Positions 3,056-10,614 of a stretch of DNA of 10,681 bases are shown piece by piece. Within the stretch, counting starts at the first letter, position 1; the number at the start of each line of letters is the position of its first letter. Made by a program: the position numbers and the translations under genes. The notes under the pieces are model-generated. The model was given only the letters and a program-made list of their open reading frames with translations. It did not search any database and was not told where the DNA came from. Source of the stretch: Methylomarinum sp. (GTDB lineage: Bacteria; Pseudomonadota; Gammaproteobacteria; Methylococcales; Methylomonadaceae); contig WTAG01000060.1 in NCBI GenBank assembly GCA_013139755.1, forward strand, positions 1 through 10,681, given 5' to 3'.

Positions 3056-3520
3056 ATGCTCTCAATAATTAAAAATATATTACTGTTATTTTTTTTAATG
3101 CTAAGCAATCATTGCTTTGCAAAGGAGAGCAAAGAAACACAACCCGCACCTCTTGTTGTCGTTGTTAACCAACAATTAAAACAAGACACCATTTCCAGAC
3201 ATGGTCTTAGTGCTATTTTTAAAATGCGCTTACACAAATGGAAAGATAACACGCCAGTCACTGTTTTTGTACTTGCTGACAACCAACCACTACATAAAGT
3301 CTTTTGCAAAACCATACTAAATGTGTTCCCCCACCAAATGCGTAGATCATGGGACAGGTTAGTCTTTAGCGGTTCGGGGCAAGCCCCAATTCAACTAGAT
3401 AGCAAAGAAGAAATGATTAAAATGTTATCATCTACTTCTGGCTCTATTGGCTATTTAAGAACAAGTGACATCAAAGAAGGTATTAAAACCCTTCAGATTC
3501 AATCAGGACGAAACAATTAA
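3056..3520 (+). CDS. Exported short PstS-like (PBP-like) periplasmic protein
   Basis: The 154-residue product starts with a Sec signal peptide: K6, a hydrophobic core around 8-17, and likely cleavage after CFA at residue 22. The mature part matches the short single-lobe proteins related to the phosphate-binding protein PstS. It has a VVVVNQ strand, then a helix with the LSAIFKMRLHKW pattern. Next come VTVFVLADNQPLHKVFCKTIL, WDRLVFSGSGQAP and a terminal SGSIGYLRTSDI. Such proteins are about half the length of true PstS and are often annotated as phosphate ABC transporter substrate-binding proteins without a linked transporter; no permease or ATPase is seen here. The ATG at 3056 lacks a clear Shine-Dalgarno. 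The stop is one base before the porin start, so the two are almost certainly co-transcribed and probably act together in the envelope. The ligand is unknown. The cysteine at 20 is not in a lipobox. Confidence 0.8.
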   Translation: MLSIIKNILLLFFLMLSNHCFAKESKETQPAPLVVVVNQQLKQDTISRHGLSAIFKMRLHKWKDNTPVTVFVLADNQPLHKVFCKTILNVFPHQMRRSWDRLVFSGSGQAPIQLDSKEEMIKMLSSTSGSIGYLRTSDIKEGIKTLQIQSGRNN

Positions 3521-3521
3521 T

Positions 3522-4745
3522 ATGAATTTCTTTAATCTCAAAAAAAACAAAAGATCTCTTGTATTTAGCTTAGCTTTTTTTGCCTATGCATTTACTGCAT
3601 CAAATACTGCACAAGCAACTGAAGACTGGCTAGGCTTTAAGCTACCAAAATCAGTACAAATTCATGGATTCTTATCCCAAGGTTTTATCCACACCTCAGA
3701 TAATAATCTATTCGGTCATAGTGACGACAGTATTTCAACCGATTTCCGCGAATTAGGTCTTAATGGTTCATGGCGAGTCATGCCTGAATTACAGTTAGCC
3801 TTACAGGTTGTCTGGAGAGATGCAGGACAGACCGACGAAGATGATTTACGGATTGATTATGGAGTTATTGATTACAACTTCTATTCTTCAGAGTCTACTT
3901 CATTAGGTATTAAAGCAGGCAGAGTTCCCACCCCCCTCGGCTTTTATAATGAAACTCGAGATATTGCTTCAACTAGACCCAGCATATTATTACCACAATC
4001 AATTTATTTTGACCGAAACAGAAATATGGCTTTATCTGCTGATGGAGGATATTTCTACGGTGAACAACGATCAGATTATGGCGACTTTTTATTTACTATA
4101 GGGGTAGTAAACCCACGTACCGACGACCCAAGCTTTAAAAATGCTATTGTAGGTAATGATAGGGGTGAAATGAAAGGTGATGCTTCATGGATAACCCGCC
4201 TGATCTATGAATGGCAAAGCGGGCTAGTTAGACTGGCTGTCACTTACGGTGATTTAAATGCTCATTACTCCCCTAACTCTGGGGCAACATTCTCAGCTGG
4301 TTCATTTAGGTTTAATCCACTTATCTTTTCCGCGCAATACAATGCAGAAAACTGGTCCTTAACATCCGAATATGCACACAGAAAAATGCGCCTAACAGAT
4401 TTCGGCGCATTCCCTAATATAAAATCAACAGGAGAAAGCTTTTACATACAAGGCACATATAAACTTTCTCGTTATTTAGAAGCTCTAGCACGCTACGACC
4501 AACTTAGCGTGGATAAAAACGACAAGAATGGTGATAATTTCGCATCTAAATCTAACGCAACTAATTATTCGCGATTTGCTAAAGACTGGACTTTTGGCTT
4601 CAGGTCAAACATCACATCCTCTCTTTTAATCAGCGCAGAATATCACCGAATTAATGGTACAGCCTGGCTATCTAACTTAGAGAACACAACACCAACGACT
4701 CAACACTGGGATTTATACACTTTACTCATTTCGTATAATTTTTAA
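3522..4745 (+). CDS. Outer-membrane beta-barrel porin-like protein
   Basis: The product is 407 residues from the ATG at 3522. A GTG at 3465 in the same frame would extend it into the upstream gene, but the ATG is immediately followed by a proper signal peptide (KKNKR, hydrophobic core, cleavage after AQA at residue 32) and has CAGGA upstream. The mature protein has alternating hydrophobic strands, aromatic girdles and short polar turns (LQLALQVVWRD, SLGIKAGRVPTPLGFYN, WTFGFRSNITSSLLISAEY). It ends in LLISYNF with a terminal Phe, the usual BAM recognition signal of outer-membrane barrels. The length fits a 16-stranded porin. GRVPTPLGFYNETRD resembles the segment of anion/phosphate porin-like families that follows the first strands, but the substrate cannot be read from the sequence. 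It is paired with the PstS-like gene one base upstream, suggesting joint uptake or sensing of a small solute. Confidence 0.85.
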   Translation: MNFFNLKKNKRSLVFSLAFFAYAFTASNTAQATEDWLGFKLPKSVQIHGFLSQGFIHTSDNNLFGHSDDSISTDFRELGLNGSWRVMPELQLALQVVWRDAGQTDEDDLRIDYGVIDYNFYSSESTSLGIKAGRVPTPLGFYNETRDIASTRPSILLPQSIYFDRNRNMALSADGGYFYGEQRSDYGDFLFTIGVVNPRTDDPSFKNAIVGNDRGEMKGDASWITRLIYEWQSGLVRLAVTYGDLNAHYSPNSGATFSAGSFRFNPLIFSAQYNAENWSLTSEYAHRKMRLTDFGAFPNIKSTGESFYIQGTYKLSRYLEALARYDQLSVDKNDKNGDNFASKSNATNYSRFAKDWTFGFRSNITSSLLISAEYHRINGTAWLSNLENTTPTTQHWDLYTLLISYNF

Positions 4746-4781: not shown

Positions 4782-5363
4782 CTAACCAGTTTTTAACTGC
4801 TTAAACATACTCCAACCTTCTCCCAAGTCAATTTCCATCAAATTTAATTCCATAGGAATACCTTGATTAAATTCAACATTTTTAGTTAATACAATTTTAG
4901 CATCCATTAGCCTCTGATAAGACCTGATATGTTTATTCATTAATGCACATAAACATATAGTACATCCAGCTTCTATCAACAATTCGAACGCCTTAGAAAT
5001 TAAATCAACAATCAACATCCGACTGCCTCTGAAAGAAGAAATAGTAGCCAGTCGCCATGAGGATCCCAGATTATATGAGTCTGCTCTCCTATACTCATCA
5101 ACCTCATTTTTAAACCAATTTTCTATATTCAACCCCACACTACTATCCACTGTTGCAGTAATAGTACCAATAATTTCACCTTTCAACTCTGCAATTACAA
5201 TAATTGTGTTGGGATGATTATCTAAGTGAGGACACGTATTGATCATTCCATCACCTTGAGGCAGTATTTCCCCAGATAAAACAAACGCATCATGTGTCAA
5301 CCGATAAATTTCATCCAACCGTGAATAATCACTTAAAACCGATACTGTATAATCTTTTTTCAC
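4782..5363 (-). CDS. FeeM-like N-acyl amino acid synthase (GNAT fold)
   Basis: The 193-residue product belongs to the branch of the GNAT superfamily that includes FeeM and resembles acyl-homoserine lactone synthases. FeeM joins a fatty acyl chain, donated by acyl-ACP, to the amino group of an amino acid such as tyrosine. Visible landmarks are IYRLTHDAFVLSGEILPQ (19-36), PHLDNHPNT (45-53) and the central strand pair IIVIAELKGEIIGTITATVD (54-73). They continue with WFKNEVDEYRRA (83-94), SSWRLATISSFRGSRM (101-116) and a C-terminal YQRLMDAKIV near 149-158. The canonical acetyl-CoA loop (Q/R-x-x-G-x-G/A) is not obvious, which fits an acyl-ACP user. Start is GTG at 5363 with GGGAAGAG upstream. It lies 197 bases after the halogenase-like gene on the same strand. 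Whether it shares that transcript or uses its own promoter (weak candidate at 5408-5434) is open. Acyl donor and acceptor are unknown. Confidence 0.7.
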   Translation of the reverse strand: MKKDYTVSVLSDYSRLDEIYRLTHDAFVLSGEILPQGDGMINTCPHLDNHPNTIIVIAELKGEIIGTITATVDSSVGLNIENWFKNEVDEYRRADSYNLGSSWRLATISSFRGSRMLIVDLISKAFELLIEAGCTICLCALMNKHIRSYQRLMDAKIVLTKNVEFNQGIPMELNLMEIDLGEGWSMFKQLKTG

Positions 5364-5407
5364 AAGCTCTTCCCTTAACCCTCCCTTTATCTACTTTTTA
5401 AAAATAA

Positions 5408-5434
5408 GTTATAAGGTTAAATTAATCTATTCAA
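5408..5434 (-). promoter_or_regulatory. Weak candidate promoter for the FeeM-like gene
   Basis: On the minus strand, TTGAAT (5429-5434) is followed after 15 bases by TATAAC (5408-5413), about 45 bases ahead of the GTG start. Both boxes are fair matches to sigma70, but the spacer is short and the region is very AT-rich. The rest of the 197-base gap (5364-5560) shows no gene and no clear terminator, only a five-pair hairpin without a T-run. Confidence 0.3.
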
Positions 5435-5560
5435 AATAAAGATCGAAACTCTGATTTAATAAAATAAATACATTTTGAGAGGGTAATTACTAAATACCAT
5501 GCTTATCAAGCACTTTGACAACCTCTAAAACACGTCAATCAACTCGTTACACCAGAAGCA

Positions 5561-6787
5561 TTAAACATAGGTACGTATTTTATTACAATGGAACTCATCC
5601 ACGCCACGAACCATAAAACTAGCAAGCTTATCTATTGGAAATTCCAAATTGCCCGCTTGTGTTGAAAGATGATCAGTAGAAAAACCATCATATATTTTTA
5701 CATCTGGAGTGGTGTACCGACCTCCTAGAGCAACGCGACTACGATCGGAATTATTACCGTAAGATGCATGGCAAACCATAGAGGAAAAAATAATCGCTTG
5801 CCCAGCTTTCATTGGATATGATTTTACCTCAAAACCATCAAATAACCATTCCAGATAATTTACTGCCTCTTTTAATATACAGTATGCTTTATGAAAAATA
5901 TTAGGCGAAAACATTAATACCTTCAGATTACTGTACATTTCTTCATCGGTTTTATCTTTCATAAAATATGCGATATTATCCAAATACTCATAAATAAACT
6001 TTTCAAAACAGTCATGAGCATGGCTACCTGGTAAAAACTGCATACAGGCATTTGTTTCATCAACATCTTGTAACGCCACCCACGCAGTAAGCTGCCCCAT
6101 TCTTGGATCCATACCAGATGGAAATTTTAATTTCTCTTTTTTCGAAGTTTCTTTAAATGCACTTGCCTGATGCCAAAAAGTACCTGTCTGCTCTGGCTTA
6201 ATTTCAAAAATCTGAGATCGCCAGCACATTAGATTATTACCCAATAAACTTGCCAGCCTATCCGTAATTTCTTTTCTAGAAAAAAGGTCTCTATACTCTT
6301 TACAATTAAGCGCTTGCCAAGCACCGGCATAATTTAATGTCCAATTATTACTCTCTTTAAGCCTATGTTTAAACTCCTCACCTAATAGAAAATTATCTTC
6401 AAACTCATTTTCAAACATTTCATATGTTTTAGAATACAGCTGCTCTGCCTGCTCAGCAGAAATCACATCAAATGGCCCCACAATACCATCTCGTGTAAAT
6501 TCATTTACCTCTTCAGCTGACAATGAAAACTCATTATGTATTGACTTGTCTTGCGCTTCTTTTCTTATTTGCAGAGGTTTAAGGTTTGGTGCATATTCTG
6601 TAGCAGGAGTGATTCTTTTTGTTTCCAAAACACCTCCCGTTATATCTATATATTTTCTATATAATTTAATACCTTCCATAACCTTGAGTAATTTTTCTTC
6701 TTCTTTATCAGCTAACTTATACGTTTTCTGCAATAAAGTAAGATCATCAAAGCTATCCAGCATTTTCTGTACGGTTATATTTGGCAT
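5561..6787 (-). CDS. Fe(II)/2-oxoglutarate-dependent aliphatic halogenase-like enzyme (PhyH fold)
   Basis: The 408-residue product has a PhyH-type double-stranded beta-helix at about 97-370. The first metal motif reads TGTFWHQASAF (201-211), with His206-Gln-Ala208. In hydroxylases the third position is Asp or Glu. Ala there opens a halide-binding site on iron and defines the SyrB2/CytC3/BarB1-type halogenases. Other family marks are DGIVGPF (100-106), QLTAWVAL (232-239), MQFLPGSH (249-256) and PMKAGQAIIF (325-334). The distal ligand is His340 in VCHASYGN, and Arg351, eleven residues on, is the expected 2-oxoglutarate contact, followed by GGRYTTPDVKIY. These features predict radical halogenation of an unactivated carbon. 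The protein is about 90-100 residues longer than typical members because of an N-terminal charged helical region (1-85) plus a helical insert near 261-320. The ATG at 6787 has a strong AAGGA site. It follows the GGDEF/EAL gene by 39 bases. Alternatives are an inactive or repurposed PhyH protein. Confidence 0.8.
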   Translation of the reverse strand: MPNITVQKMLDSFDDLTLLQKTYKLADKEEEKLLKVMEGIKLYRKYIDITGGVLETKRITPATEYAPNLKPLQIRKEAQDKSIHNEFSLSAEEVNEFTRDGIVGPFDVISAEQAEQLYSKTYEMFENEFEDNFLLGEEFKHRLKESNNWTLNYAGAWQALNCKEYRDLFSRKEITDRLASLLGNNLMCWRSQIFEIKPEQTGTFWHQASAFKETSKKEKLKFPSGMDPRMGQLTAWVALQDVDETNACMQFLPGSHAHDCFEKFIYEYLDNIAYFMKDKTDEEMYSNLKVLMFSPNIFHKAYCILKEAVNYLEWLFDGFEVKSYPMKAGQAIIFSSMVCHASYGNNSDRSRVALGGRYTTPDVKIYDGFSTDHLSTQAGNLEFPIDKLASFMVRGVDEFHCNKIRTYV

Positions 6788-6826
6788 AAATTTCCTTTTA
6801 CTAATTTATCATATTCATTATCACTT

Positions 6827-9667
6827 TCAATGAAACTCCGGATAAGGCATAGGCTTCCCAATACCATACCCCTGTGCATAATCAACACCTATATCTGACA
6901 ATACTTCAAGAATTTCATCATTCTCTACAAATTCAGCAATACTTTCAATATTCATACCCTGCCCAACTTCATTAATCGCATTAACAAACAAGCGATCTTC
7001 ATGAGTATTGGAAAGGTTTTTAATAAACTCTCCATCTATTTTCAAATACTGTACTGGTAACCTTTTTAAGTAATTCATTGATGAAAAACCTACGCCAAAA
7101 TCATCTAACGCAAACTTACCTCCTATTGCAGTGAATTGAGAAATAAAACTATTAGCCGATTTTAAGTTAGAGACAGCCTTCGTTTCAGTCACCTCAAAAA
7201 TAAATTGTTCCGCCTTAACCCCATAACTCTCTAACAATGAAGTACAAATTTGAAATGCTTCAGGATTAGAAAGCAATTCACCTGACATATTAACAGACAA
7301 GACAATATTTAAACCTTTATCCATAAACTGTTTTTGATGCTGAAAAGCCATTTCCAGCACCATTTTATCGATATATTTAATTAACCCCGTTTGCTCAGCC
7401 ACACAAATAAAAGGACCTGGCGGTATAATATCGCCATTCTCACCTACCATTCGTAACAAACATTCATAATGCGAGATACTCTTATCGGCTATGCGCATAA
7501 TTGGTTGAAAATACAATACAAAACGCTCCTCCGCTAAAGCCTTTTCTATCTTTGACTTCCAGTTCACACGGTACTTCACTTCATCTCTGTCCAGGTCACT
7601 AGGTGATGCCAGACACCACATTCCCCTACCCAATTCCTTGGCCTTATACATAGCAATATCTACACTTGCCATTAAATCCTGCCCTGTATAGCCTTCTACG
7701 GGGAACATAAGCAAGCCCGCACTTATACTCACTTTGTGTAACACTTCACCCAGAACAACTTCCACATCCATTACCTGACTAAATACTTTATTAATCAGTG
7801 ATTCAGCACCTTCCTGCGTAATCTGTGGCGATAACACTACAAATTCATCCCCCCCAAATCGAGCGATGATATCGGTCTTACGCACTGCCAGCTTTAATTG
7901 TTCAGCAATTTTTGATAATAACTGATCACCGACCTTGTGTCCGCTACTATCATTGATATATTTGAACTGGTCGACATCAAAAAAAATTAATGCGCAATTA
8001 TGCTTAAACCTTTCCGCCTCAATAAGAACACGATGCAACTCATTGTCAAAACGACGCCGATTAAACAGCCCCGTTAAAGGGTCGTGATCAGCGAGCCAAG
8101 CCAACTTAGTTTCAACCGCACGCCTTTCTGTTAAATCTAACCCTACAACTAAAATCTCAGGCTCTGCATCAACATTATGAATCACCGTAAAAAACCATGA
8201 GATATAGAGTTTATCGCCTTTCAACGAGGACAGCGCACTATCATGCTTATAAGTGGAATATTTTTTATCAAGCAAATCAGGGATAACACCATCAAGTAAG
8301 TCTTCACTTTTATTATCGTAAATCAAATCAGTAAATAAGTATTTACTGACCAATACCTCTTCATCATAGCCAGTCAGTTTTTTACCATACTGATTAATTG
8401 AAAGTATTTGCCCTAATTGATCTAGCCTCATAATAATAACCTGGGCAGTATCCAGTATATTGGAAACAAAGTTACGTTCGTTTTGTAACTCATTACTACG
8501 CTCAAGCAATGTTAAATTTCTCTGCTCAACGTCACTATCAAGCTTAGTGAGTGTGGCAATCAAATGATGCGCTGCTGAATCTAACACATCAATTTCATCA
8601 GCCAGTAGCCTTCTCTCCTTTAATTCAGGAAGTGATTGCTCCACTTCGCTGTATTTTTTTTCCGCCAAGAGAGGTAACAAGTTAATAATTTTCTTTAATT
8701 TAGCCGTTGGCCTGATAAACAATAAGAAAAGTATAATCCCTGATAACAAAATACTCGACAATCCACTAACGACATACAAATCCACAGCGTTTTGTTTTTC
8801 TAATAACTCTTGAGTGATATTGTCAATAACAACCAATTTAGCCAGAGATGCATCATCCCCAAAAGGAATGATAAAAATATCATAAGTCTTATCATCAAAA
8901 ACATAGGAAATGCTTTTGTCCGGGATAGCTTTGGGATAGCTACGTTGCAATGCTTCTAGCAAAGTGTAATTTTTAGAAAAGTTAGTTAATGCGGGGATTT
9001 TTAATGACCACAATGGCAAGCTTGATTGCTGTTGCTCATAAGGTGTATTGCTTGCCTTAATCAAAATACCAATATCTGCCTTGGTAATTTCTTTCATCTG
9101 CAAAACAATTTCATTAATACTTGATGCAAAAATAAAAACACCCGCAAACTCGCCATTATGCAAAAAAGGTATTGCATGATATTGAAAGCAATTAGTATCA
9201 CAAACTATTTTATTATGTGACTGCTCATCATCAATAACATCTTTAAGCCATGTGGAAAGTAACGCTTGCCGATGAATTATCCCACCCCACTCACCTTTTA
9301 ACTGCCCTACTGCATCAAAAAGAAAAATTGATTGAATATCTGATTCCAGCTCAATCTTGAACCAGTTATTATTAATAAGACGAGTAATTTCTGTTAAAGC
9401 CTTTTCTCTGGGAATATCCGCATTGATAAATGATGGGATCAACCAGCCCAATTCAGTTTCTTTTTGTTTTAATTGGGTAATAACGCTGGAAAAAGCCTGT
9501 TCATATTGTTGATGTCTACTATCAATTCTCTGCGCATGGTTCTTGTTATAAATATATTGACCCAACACAAATATACAGCCTGAAGCCAATACTGTTGATA
9601 TTGTCACTGCAAACAGTGCCTTCCATATCAAACCAAACGAAATATTTTTTTTTATAAACTTCGACAA
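6827..9667 (-). CDS. Membrane-bound sensor-PAS-GGDEF-EAL cyclic-di-GMP enzyme
   Basis: The 946-residue inner-membrane protein probably makes and/or breaks c-di-GMP. It has a TM helix at about 14-38, then a periplasmic Cache-like sensor region (39-293) with two close cysteines (C156, C160) that could form a disulfide. A second TM follows (about 296-318), then a HAMP-like/coiled-coil linker (320-398) and a PAS domain (about 399-515, ending DLTERRA). The GGDEF domain (522-685) has FGGDEF at 604-609 and an RxxD inhibitory site (R596-D599), five residues upstream. The EAL domain (700-946) has the signature as E735-C-L. The other catalytic positions look present: N793, E825, D855-D856, K876, E912 and Q932. 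Both activities are therefore possible. Start is TTG at 9667, supported by GGAG seven bases upstream and by the immediately following TM; no in-frame ATG lies near. It is 39 bases before the halogenase-like gene, so the two are probably co-transcribed. Confidence 0.93.
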   Translation of the reverse strand: MSKFIKKNISFGLIWKALFAVTISTVLASGCIFVLGQYIYNKNHAQRIDSRHQQYEQAFSSVITQLKQKETELGWLIPSFINADIPREKALTEITRLINNNWFKIELESDIQSIFLFDAVGQLKGEWGGIIHRQALLSTWLKDVIDDEQSHNKIVCDTNCFQYHAIPFLHNGEFAGVFIFASSINEIVLQMKEITKADIGILIKASNTPYEQQQSSLPLWSLKIPALTNFSKNYTLLEALQRSYPKAIPDKSISYVFDDKTYDIFIIPFGDDASLAKLVVIDNITQELLEKQNAVDLYVVSGLSSILLSGIILFLLFIRPTAKLKKIINLLPLLAEKKYSEVEQSLPELKERRLLADEIDVLDSAAHHLIATLTKLDSDVEQRNLTLLERSNELQNERNFVSNILDTAQVIIMRLDQLGQILSINQYGKKLTGYDEEVLVSKYLFTDLIYDNKSEDLLDGVIPDLLDKKYSTYKHDSALSSLKGDKLYISWFFTVIHNVDAEPEILVVGLDLTERRAVETKLAWLADHDPLTGLFNRRRFDNELHRVLIEAERFKHNCALIFFDVDQFKYINDSSGHKVGDQLLSKIAEQLKLAVRKTDIIARFGGDEFVVLSPQITQEGAESLINKVFSQVMDVEVVLGEVLHKVSISAGLLMFPVEGYTGQDLMASVDIAMYKAKELGRGMWCLASPSDLDRDEVKYRVNWKSKIEKALAEERFVLYFQPIMRIADKSISHYECLLRMVGENGDIIPPGPFICVAEQTGLIKYIDKMVLEMAFQHQKQFMDKGLNIVLSVNMSGELLSNPEAFQICTSLLESYGVKAEQFIFEVTETKAVSNLKSANSFISQFTAIGGKFALDDFGVGFSSMNYLKRLPVQYLKIDGEFIKNLSNTHEDRLFVNAINEVGQGMNIESIAEFVENDEILEVLSDIGVDYAQGYGIGKPMPYPEFH

Positions 9668-10008
9668 AGAATCACTCCATGAAATGATATAACAAACATA
9701 CCCATAAATACTGCGCTAACAAAACTTAGCAGCTTTCTAAACAATTACAAGCAACAAAAAAATATCGCGACTATTTAAGGAGCCTCTGATCAAGTCATGA
9801 ACTCGTACCTTATGCTCAGAATATCCAGCTTCTGCGTTAAAAATCTTCGCAATAGCCTGCTATTACGTGCGATTTTTGCCTTGAATCTAAATATACTGAA
9901 CATAATTTACTTCGCCCAGACTTAATCAGAGGTTCCTTAAATCATACTTAATAGATGGGCTGAATATATGGAATAGGCTACATAACAAGTCTAATTAATC
10001 AAAAAAGA
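9668..10008. other. Intergenic region carrying a palindromic MITE-like element
   Basis: This 341-base gap lies between the exported His-first protein and the GGDEF/EAL gene, both leftward. Nearly half is the palindromic element at 9779-9936, described separately. Between that element and the TTG start are about 110 AT-rich bases that should hold the GGDEF/EAL promoter. TTGTTA-N16-TATGTT is a weak candidate there. I see no gene. Confidence 0.6.
9779..9936. mobile_element. MITE-like palindromic element with TTAA target duplications
   Basis: The ends form an inverted repeat: left 9774-9796 and right 9919-9941 match at 21 of 23 positions when the right is reverse-complemented (left end of the element GGAGCCTCTGATCAAGTC, right GGAACCTCTGATTAAGTC). 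TTAA lies directly outside both ends (9775-9778 and 9937-9940), as expected for a 4-base target duplication. The interior is also an imperfect palindrome, with AAAAATC/GATTTTT and AATAG/CTATT arms closing on a CCTG loop at 9856-9859, exactly at the element's centre. There is no transposase gene. Ends beginning GG and a YTAR-type target recall IS5-family elements, so a non-autonomous derivative is my inference. Confidence 0.75.
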
Positions 10009-10014
10009 TTAATT
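9993..10014 (-). terminator. Weak candidate hairpin at the end of the His-first protein gene
   Basis: AATTAATC (9993-10000) and GATTAATT (10007-10014) are exact reverse complements around a six-base loop and overlap the TAA stop. The stem is entirely AT-rich except one pair, and no T-run follows on the minus strand. It is a weak terminator at best, or chance in AT-rich DNA. Confidence 0.25.
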
Positions 10015-10614
10015 TTCTTTCGGTTTAAACACTCGCATTATTACCACAGCGATAATAGCCACAATGATTAAAACCATAACAATCATAAATGTAAAACCAC
10101 TCGACTCAGGTTCGACTCCAACAGAAAAAGGCAGATGAGAATCCAACTTTTCCCCTTGATGTACGATAGTTACATGTGCTAAATAATCACCAGCACCATA
10201 TTGACTAAAATCAACTTTGGCATCCATGCTACCTTTTTTAATTTTCTCAGGTTTTTGATAAAAAACACGTGTTGCTTCTGGCTCTTTTGTTATTTCAAAT
10301 TCAACTGTGGTATTGCGTAACTTCTTGCCTTCATAATCGAATACCAAATGAGTCAACTCAACATCAGGTATATAATGACAATACCCTGTACCCCCTGTAG
10401 ATTTTGGTGTATATGCTGAAAAATGAATCACCTCGCTACCGACTGAAAACCGGCAGGTATCCACTTCATTTTTTGCACCTCTATGCGCACTCGCAGTCGA
10501 TGACAACATAAAACCCAAAAACAACACAGATACCAACATATAAAACTTGTCCACAGTATATCTATGTAATCTAGAAGATGAGTTTATAACCCTCAACACT
10601 TTCATTTCTTTCAT
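10009..10614 (-). CDS. Exported, C-terminally membrane-anchored protein with predicted mature N-terminal His
   Basis: I do not recognise a characterised function. The 201-residue product has a long basic n-region, a hydrophobic core (about 26-40) and a clear signal peptidase site STASA|HRG, so the mature protein would begin with His44. The soluble part (44-170) looks like a beta-sandwich, with two cysteines (C54, C79) that could pair and further histidines at 64, 80, 89, 147, 152 and 160. A single TM helix (about 174-193) and a basic tail RVFKPKEN anchor it with the body in the periplasm. A free N-terminal His plus other His residues is the arrangement used in copper histidine-brace proteins; the link here is inference only. 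The ATG at 10614 has GAGGA close upstream; a second ATG at 10602 is less well placed. The gene lies 72 bases upstream of the MITE-like element, in the same direction as the c-di-GMP gene. Confidence 0.75.
   Translation of the reverse strand: MKEMKVLRVINSSSRLHRYTVDKFYMLVSVLFLGFMLSSTASAHRGAKNEVDTCRFSVGSEVIHFSAYTPKSTGGTGYCHYIPDVELTHLVFDYEGKKLRNTTVEFEITKEPEATRVFYQKPEKIKKGSMDAKVDFSQYGAGDYLAHVTIVHQGEKLDSHLPFSVGVEPESSGFTFMIVMVLIIVAIIAVVIMRVFKPKEN

Follow-up and report, generated by a model that had tools for sequence, protein, structure and literature searches.

In a 10,681-nucleotide stretch of Methylomarinum sp. DNA (contig WTAG01000060.1; 'the window' below means this whole stretch), three consecutive minus-strand genes encode a GGDEF/EAL sensor of cyclic di-GMP (c-di-GMP) signaling, a halogenase-like enzyme and a FeeM-like acyltransferase. 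Comparison across genomes shows that the conserved unit is GGDEF/EAL plus N-acyltransferase, and not halogenase plus FeeM. Our firmest result is the joint inheritance, within the clade, of the c-di-GMP sensor and an enzyme of a type that forms acyl-amines, to which a narrow lineage has added the halogenase. We read the locus as a c-di-GMP sensor to which an acyl-amine synthase is coupled; a single lineage of marine Methylococcales-like bacteria would have gained the halogenase in addition. We place the chances of this interpretation slightly above even. Gene order and coordinates (Table 1) were taken from the open reading frame (ORF) listing of the window and domains from Pfam and NCBIfam scans. 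The original prediction had described the three genes as one system. The genes are present as described, with gaps of 39 bases (6788-6826) and 197 bases (5364-5560), and are not chance ORFs (Pfam E-values: EAL 1.7e-64, GGDEF 1.7e-42, dCache_3 1.6e-20, PhyH 1.1e-22, FeeM 1.5e-21); the system, however, narrowly elaborates a more widespread unit of two parts, and the halogenase is the member of the run that is not conserved.

Recurrence of the sensor and acyltransferase genes

Whether the halogenase and FeeM-like genes recur as a pair across species was the check put forward with the original prediction, by comparison of genome neighborhoods. That pair was found once more only, on the strength of equal contig sizes (10330 bases), whereas GGDEF/EAL with an N-acyltransferase recurs. 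Two genomes of the order Methylococcales (L142, L143) have genes for a periplasmic-binding-protein-like (PBP-like) protein and a porin-like protein, then convergent FeeM and GGDEF/EAL genes without a halogenase; the gap from GGDEF/EAL to FeeM is 26 bases in L142 and 22 in L143 (starts called mechanically), and L143 sits on a contig of 4,335,162 bases. In four distant gammaproteobacteria (L094, L095, L098, L112) the porin, GGDEF/EAL and FeeM genes are co-directional, with FeeM directly downstream of GGDEF/EAL. A PBP-like gene precedes the porin in the first three of these and L112 ends near its porin; the Pfam check of FeeM was made for L094, L095 and L112. As a separate observation, the PBP-like and porin-like pair (3056-4745 in the window) accompanies dCache-GGDEF-EAL genes in many gammaproteobacterial loci, mostly co-directional in distant relatives and convergent in close ones.

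A second acyltransferase family occurs beside the same gene. TIGR03694, the PEP-CTERM/exosortase-associated acyltransferase (exosort_acyl), is, like FeeM, counted here as an enzyme of N-acyl amino acid synthase (NAS) type. All 15 loci whose GGDEF/EAL gene scored above 900 bits carry a NAS-type gene, comprising TIGR03694 in 13 close relatives (all over the cut-off and upstream) and FeeM in two (downstream); the distance to GGDEF/EAL is within 171 bases in 14 of them and 1754 bases in one. Since TIGR03694 exceeds its cut-off in 32 of the 274 genomes sampled from the class, this adjacency is not due to chance, although the 15 genomes are related and do not count as independent events. Among the best TIGR03694 genes of 30 genomes, five adjoin a PBP-porin pair within 1.5 kb. 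No locus among those compared holds both families.

The choice of these loci followed the score ranking of their dCache-PAS parts and was not random. A NAS-type gene lies within ~2.2 kb in 14 of the 20 loci of the first set (four FeeM and ten TIGR03694, the ten that were checked), and one is present in 16 of the 20 of the second (two FeeM, 14 TIGR03694). The TIGR03694-type gene is upstream of GGDEF/EAL in L093 and L144-L156, just after it in L104 and L109, and near the PBP gene in other loci. Genome G239 was omitted, the second match of G269 enters only in the third set (L186), and the FeeM search had already revealed G207 and G222. In L109, L157, L172 and L184-L186 the GGDEF/EAL match was below threshold, and a separate scan found TIGR03694 in L109 and in none of the other five. 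L157 stops within its GGDEF/EAL gene, and L100, L108 and L111 are close to contig ends.

Co-inheritance points the same way. Homologs of all three genes fall on one 10330-base contig, and of GGDEF/EAL and FeeM on contigs of 53674 and 5706 bases, a linkage deduced from equal contig sizes. Between the window and the 10330-base contig, identity is 88% for the halogenase, 83% for GGDEF/EAL and 65% for FeeM, so of these genes the acyltransferase evolves most rapidly. Across ten FeeM/GGDEF-EAL pairs (three of them joined by equal contig size), the FeeM identity matrix correlates with that of GGDEF-EAL at r = 0.92 and with that of dCache at r = 0.91 (permutation p = 0.0001, the lowest value that 9999 permutations allow), which shows long joint, vertical inheritance and not ligand matching. 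Neighborhoods and co-inheritance thus bear out a strong connection of the acyltransferase with the c-di-GMP gene.

Predicted activities of the three proteins

The sensor consists of a transmembrane segment (residues 9-39), a periplasmic dCache_3 domain (51-287), a second transmembrane segment (294-324) and PAS, GGDEF and EAL domains, as read from hydropathy and Pfam; the PAS match is weak (20 bits, cut-off 22.6). An RKTD inhibitory site (I-site, RxxD) at residue 596 stands five residues ahead of the GGDEF motif, and the EAL side keeps ECLLR (735), DDFG (855), LKID (875), EFVE (912) and QGY (932), so that the GGDEF, I-site, ExLxR, DDFG, KID, ExVE and Q motifs of a bifunctional c-di-GMP enzyme are all present, with the catalytic and inhibitory roles that we take these motifs to have. 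Because they are intact, the protein is likely a working bifunctional enzyme controlled from the periplasm. The relatives of this protein that carry a name come from Methylomarinum vadi (61%) and Methylobacter (52%), which makes a relative of marine Methylococcales the most likely origin of the window.

The FeeM-like protein matches PF21926 at 77.3 bits (cut-off 27), as do all ten members of its homolog set A2 at E 0.001. FeeM is the leading fold match, with BjaI, LasI and TofI among those after. NCBIfam gave no match at E 0.1, TIGR03694 included, and the Autoind_synth match (PF00765) of LuxI-type acyl-homoserine lactone synthases is absent. The fold is related to that of LuxI systems, but the putative receptor here is a membrane GGDEF/EAL protein and not LuxR. 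A Trp-Arg pair is invariant in all 15 members of the subfamily. Unlike 26 of 30 sampled PF21926 loci (1.5 kb flanks), the window gene is linked to GGDEF/EAL; the four loci with a neighboring GGDEF/EAL gene all belong to the Trp-Arg subfamily. FeeM of the window type was strong in two (G575, G541) and weak in two of 201 sampled genomes of the family. With the FeeM query, plasmids gave no relative, and neither did viral contigs, where FeeM was the only query and 71 pattern matches were obtained. Separately, seven gammaproteobacterial loci (L197, L201, L202, L204, L205, L208, L210) encode fusions of FeeM to a cyclic-nucleotide-binding (cNMP-binding) domain, none of them with Glu where the alignment puts the catalytic residue.

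The second gene is, by motif and modeled fold, a SyrB2-type Fe(II)/2-oxoglutarate (2OG) halogenase, for which C-H halogenation is predicted; the halogenase identity given in the original prediction is upheld by the HQA motif and the SyrB2 fold. Ala208 of this motif is invariant among the eight closest relatives, as expected of halogenases with Ala or Gly in place of Asp/Glu, and the SyrB2-like fold comes with a distal His and a 2OG-binding Arg (we assume His340 to be an iron ligand and Arg351 to bind 2OG). The protein is ~28% identical to SyrB2 and CytC3 over the aligned fold and differs from them by ~85 additional N-terminal residues, mostly helical. Also unlike these enzymes, and unlike HctB for acyl chains on a carrier, it has no carrier-like or non-ribosomal peptide synthetase gene in the window. 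HctB is reported to act on carrier-bound moieties other than amino acids (PMC6218459). No named free-amino-acid halogenase occurs among the 50 alignment matches listed, an absence that proves nothing. On plasmids, 27 records match the halogenase, all below 60% identity, and 15 of 20 listed are named chlorinating enzyme. Asp is retained in three distant relatives (L050, L051, L055). FeeM of the window type was found in none of 55 distant halogenase loci (up to 10 kb on each side, less on short contigs) and in none of 16 genomes holding distant halogenases, the same query succeeding in other genomes. The halogenase is a narrow, lineage-specific insertion between GGDEF/EAL and FeeM.

Two observations on the wider halogenase family stand apart. 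In relatives from Aquimarina, Roseivirga, Plesiocystis and metagenome-assembled genomes (MAGs) of Polyangia and Saprospiraceae (L003-L013), HQA is replaced by HQT, HQN or HQS, with neither a carboxylate nor Ala/Gly. A Roseivirga MAG (L005:6363-12347) has an AMP-binding/PP-binding/aminotransferase protein, a halogenase relative and a P450 in a row, possibly a halogenated lipid pathway.

Taken together, the core would be GGDEF/EAL with an acyltransferase of the LuxI/FeeM/exosortase-NAS superfold, beside the PBP-like/porin-like pair. The acyltransferase most likely takes a fatty acyl chain from acyl carrier protein (acyl-ACP) and attaches it to an amine, such as an amino acid. Its product would serve as a signal or work at the cell surface, and the pathway would be linked to the c-di-GMP status that the dCache-PAS-GGDEF-EAL protein establishes. 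The halogenase would most likely chlorinate or brominate either the acyl-ACP that serves as substrate or the acyl-amine, acting before or after the transfer; its target might be acyl-ACP, by analogy with HctB, or else the finished lipid or something unrelated. We infer co-transcription, the acyl-ACP donor, the amine acceptor, halogenation and the direction of coupling. The lipid may be sensed by the dCache domain, or may merely be made under c-di-GMP control.

Alternative explanations of the locus

Several observations weigh against a coupled synthase and sensor elaborated by a halogenase. The 197-base gap ahead of FeeM could hold a separate promoter; a promoter and terminator scan found no minus-strand site in it but is uninformative, because its counts equal those of shuffled sequence. 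In close relatives TIGR03694 lies on the opposite side of GGDEF/EAL from FeeM, so the two families do not strictly share a slot. In the third, lower-scoring set, only one locus of 20 has a NAS gene (L182, detected solely by a custom TIGR03694-type profile built from ten loci of this study), with PBP and porin genes in seven and a porin in three more, L182 included. As blocks of this set often stand without a NAS gene, the sensor block does not need one. A contig of 21850 bases has an 89% identical halogenase cluster, and no FeeM or GGDEF/EAL cluster comes from a contig of that size. The catalytic Glu of FeeM is replaced by Ser, Ala, Val or Thr in all 15 members of the window subfamily, in contrast to five aligned TIGR03694 proteins that keep it; the profile alignment is ungapped there, and Glu was counted as residue 96 of the listed chain, one off the published number. 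The earlier assignment as a FeeM-type synthase therefore holds for the fold and is weakened for the catalytic site, where the window protein has Ser next to the invariant Trp-Arg. The halogenase scores 142.1 bits against a TIGR01762 cut-off of 226.3, and we accordingly class it as halogenase-like by site and fold and not as a member of that family of chlorinating enzymes. Finally, no ORF of 50-130 amino acids in the window has a carrier-type motif, in the form that we presume such motifs to take.

Of the competing explanations, the one that survives best treats the halogenase as a passenger gene: an enzyme that arrived by horizontal transfer, acts on a free or carrier-bound substrate of its own elsewhere in the cell, and came to lie between the pair by chance. 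We regard this as a real if lesser possibility. The halogenase is absent from L142 and L143 and, at full length, from all 201 sampled genomes of the family (two weak partial matches), and its relatives in the genome collection are at most 40% identical, mostly from other phyla and in varied contexts among those read. The 21850-base contig is consistent with independent movement, and so is the conservation of the halogenase relative to FeeM between the two carriers, from which it follows that the two evolve differently. Such an insertion would nevertheless have landed inside the pair, co-directional and 39 bases after GGDEF/EAL, and the halogenase is again found with both on the 10330-base contig; its GC content (0.351) also matches that of FeeM (0.347).

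Somewhat more doubtful is an arrangement in which GGDEF/EAL sets c-di-GMP for biofilm or exopolysaccharide formation, a way of life for which the acyltransferase would supply a necessary surface-active lipid, the product not being sensed. A Methylomonas LW13 mutant in the exosortase-type NAS ExoAT lacks a distinct polysaccharide band (PMC11072679), and NAS-PilZ fusions, Nas343 and Nas354, suggest control of NAS by c-di-GMP (PMC4897644). NAS is tied to c-di-GMP both there and here; the link in Nas343/Nas354 is a fused c-di-GMP-binding domain, whereas in the window it is a neighboring enzyme that would make and break c-di-GMP. Seven of ten PF21926 proteins scanned have a fused cNMP-binding domain; control by nucleotides thus occurs among enzymes of this kind. 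However, Pfam finds no PilZ or other c-di-GMP-binding domain in the window FeeM-like protein, and the LW13 gene may be a copy other than the GGDEF/EAL-linked one, with three TIGR03694 copies over the cut-off in five of 22 searched genomes (G269, G475, G509, G549, G524).

We consider unlikely a signal-receptor loop, a special case of the coupled synthase and sensor with the arrow running from synthase to sensor. Here the acyltransferase would make a diffusible or periplasmic N-acyl amine, a putative dCache ligand sensed through PBP/porin and dCache and converted by the cell to c-di-GMP, and the halogenase would change the structure of this signal, providing a private dialect. PBP-porin-GGDEF/EAL blocks with no NAS nearby are common, as the seven in the third set illustrate; three of these seven (L179, L181, L183) occur in genomes that also hold a NAS-linked one. 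The correlation of divergence is, moreover, equally high for the cytoplasmic GGDEF-EAL part.

A conserved pairing of halogenase and FeeM is rejected on the basis of the 55 distant loci, L142/L143 and the 201 sampled family genomes.

Other features of the window and implications

Table 1. Genes and sequence motifs located in the window.
Feature	Position	Strand	Size or site	Basis or remark
dCache-PAS-GGDEF-EAL membrane sensor	6827..9667	-	946 aa	ORF list, Pfam
GGDEF active-site motif	7841..7855	-	residue 605	
Fe(II)/2-oxoglutarate halogenase, SyrB2/CytC3 type (predicted)	5561..6787	-	408 aa	ORF list, Pfam, fold
His-Gln-Ala iron motif	6164..6172	-	residues 206-208	Ala in place of hydroxylase Asp/Glu
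Distal His340 to Arg351	5735..5770	-		both invariant in 17/17
FeeM-fold acyltransferase (GNAT), GTG start	4782..5363	-	193 aa	ORF list, Pfam, fold
Ser101-Ser102-Trp103-Arg104	5052..5063	-		Ser101 at FeeM catalytic Glu position
PBP-like periplasmic protein	3056..3520	+		PF12849, 27.3 bits (cut-off 27), synteny
Porin-like outer-membrane protein	3522..4745 (start approximate)	+		name inferred; synteny
201-aa protein, hydrophobic segments at N- and C-terminus	10009..10614	-	201 aa	hydropathy

The plus-strand PBP-like and porin-like genes converge on the three-gene run and form a larger syntenic block with it; the porin-like gene has no Pfam or NCBIfam match. Upstream of the run and in the same direction, the gene for the 201-residue protein likewise matches neither collection. 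Between the two, at ~9780-9945, a possible imperfect terminal inverted repeat was spotted by eye upstream of GGDEF/EAL; a repeat finder did not confirm it, and none turned up in 247 loci searched by pattern. The remainder of the window holds hrcA (Pfam), together with what we take from their translations to be a partial dnaK and grpE. An Rfam scan of the window gave no match.

A literature search, with most subscription papers outside it, found no description of a diguanylate cyclase with an N-acyl amino acid synthase, nor of the set of GGDEF/EAL, halogenase and FeeM. We know of no halogenase with such a GGDEF/EAL and NAS unit. The most far-reaching consequence, which we hold to be improbable, would be a new kind of lipid signaling, in which a periplasmic dCache domain detects the signal made by an acyl-ACP-dependent N-acyltransferase and the signal is converted directly to c-di-GMP. 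Either of two synthase families would serve across Gammaproteobacteria, and in one marine methanotroph lineage the halogenase would chlorinate or brominate the signal into a private variant. The recurrence of one c-di-GMP sensor gene beside two families of NAS type makes a direct genetic test possible in methanotrophs. The inserted halogenase may modify a lipid that serves as a signal or belongs to the surface and, if our interpretation is correct, the halogenase and the unit would together provide a route to halogenated lipids in methane-oxidizing communities.

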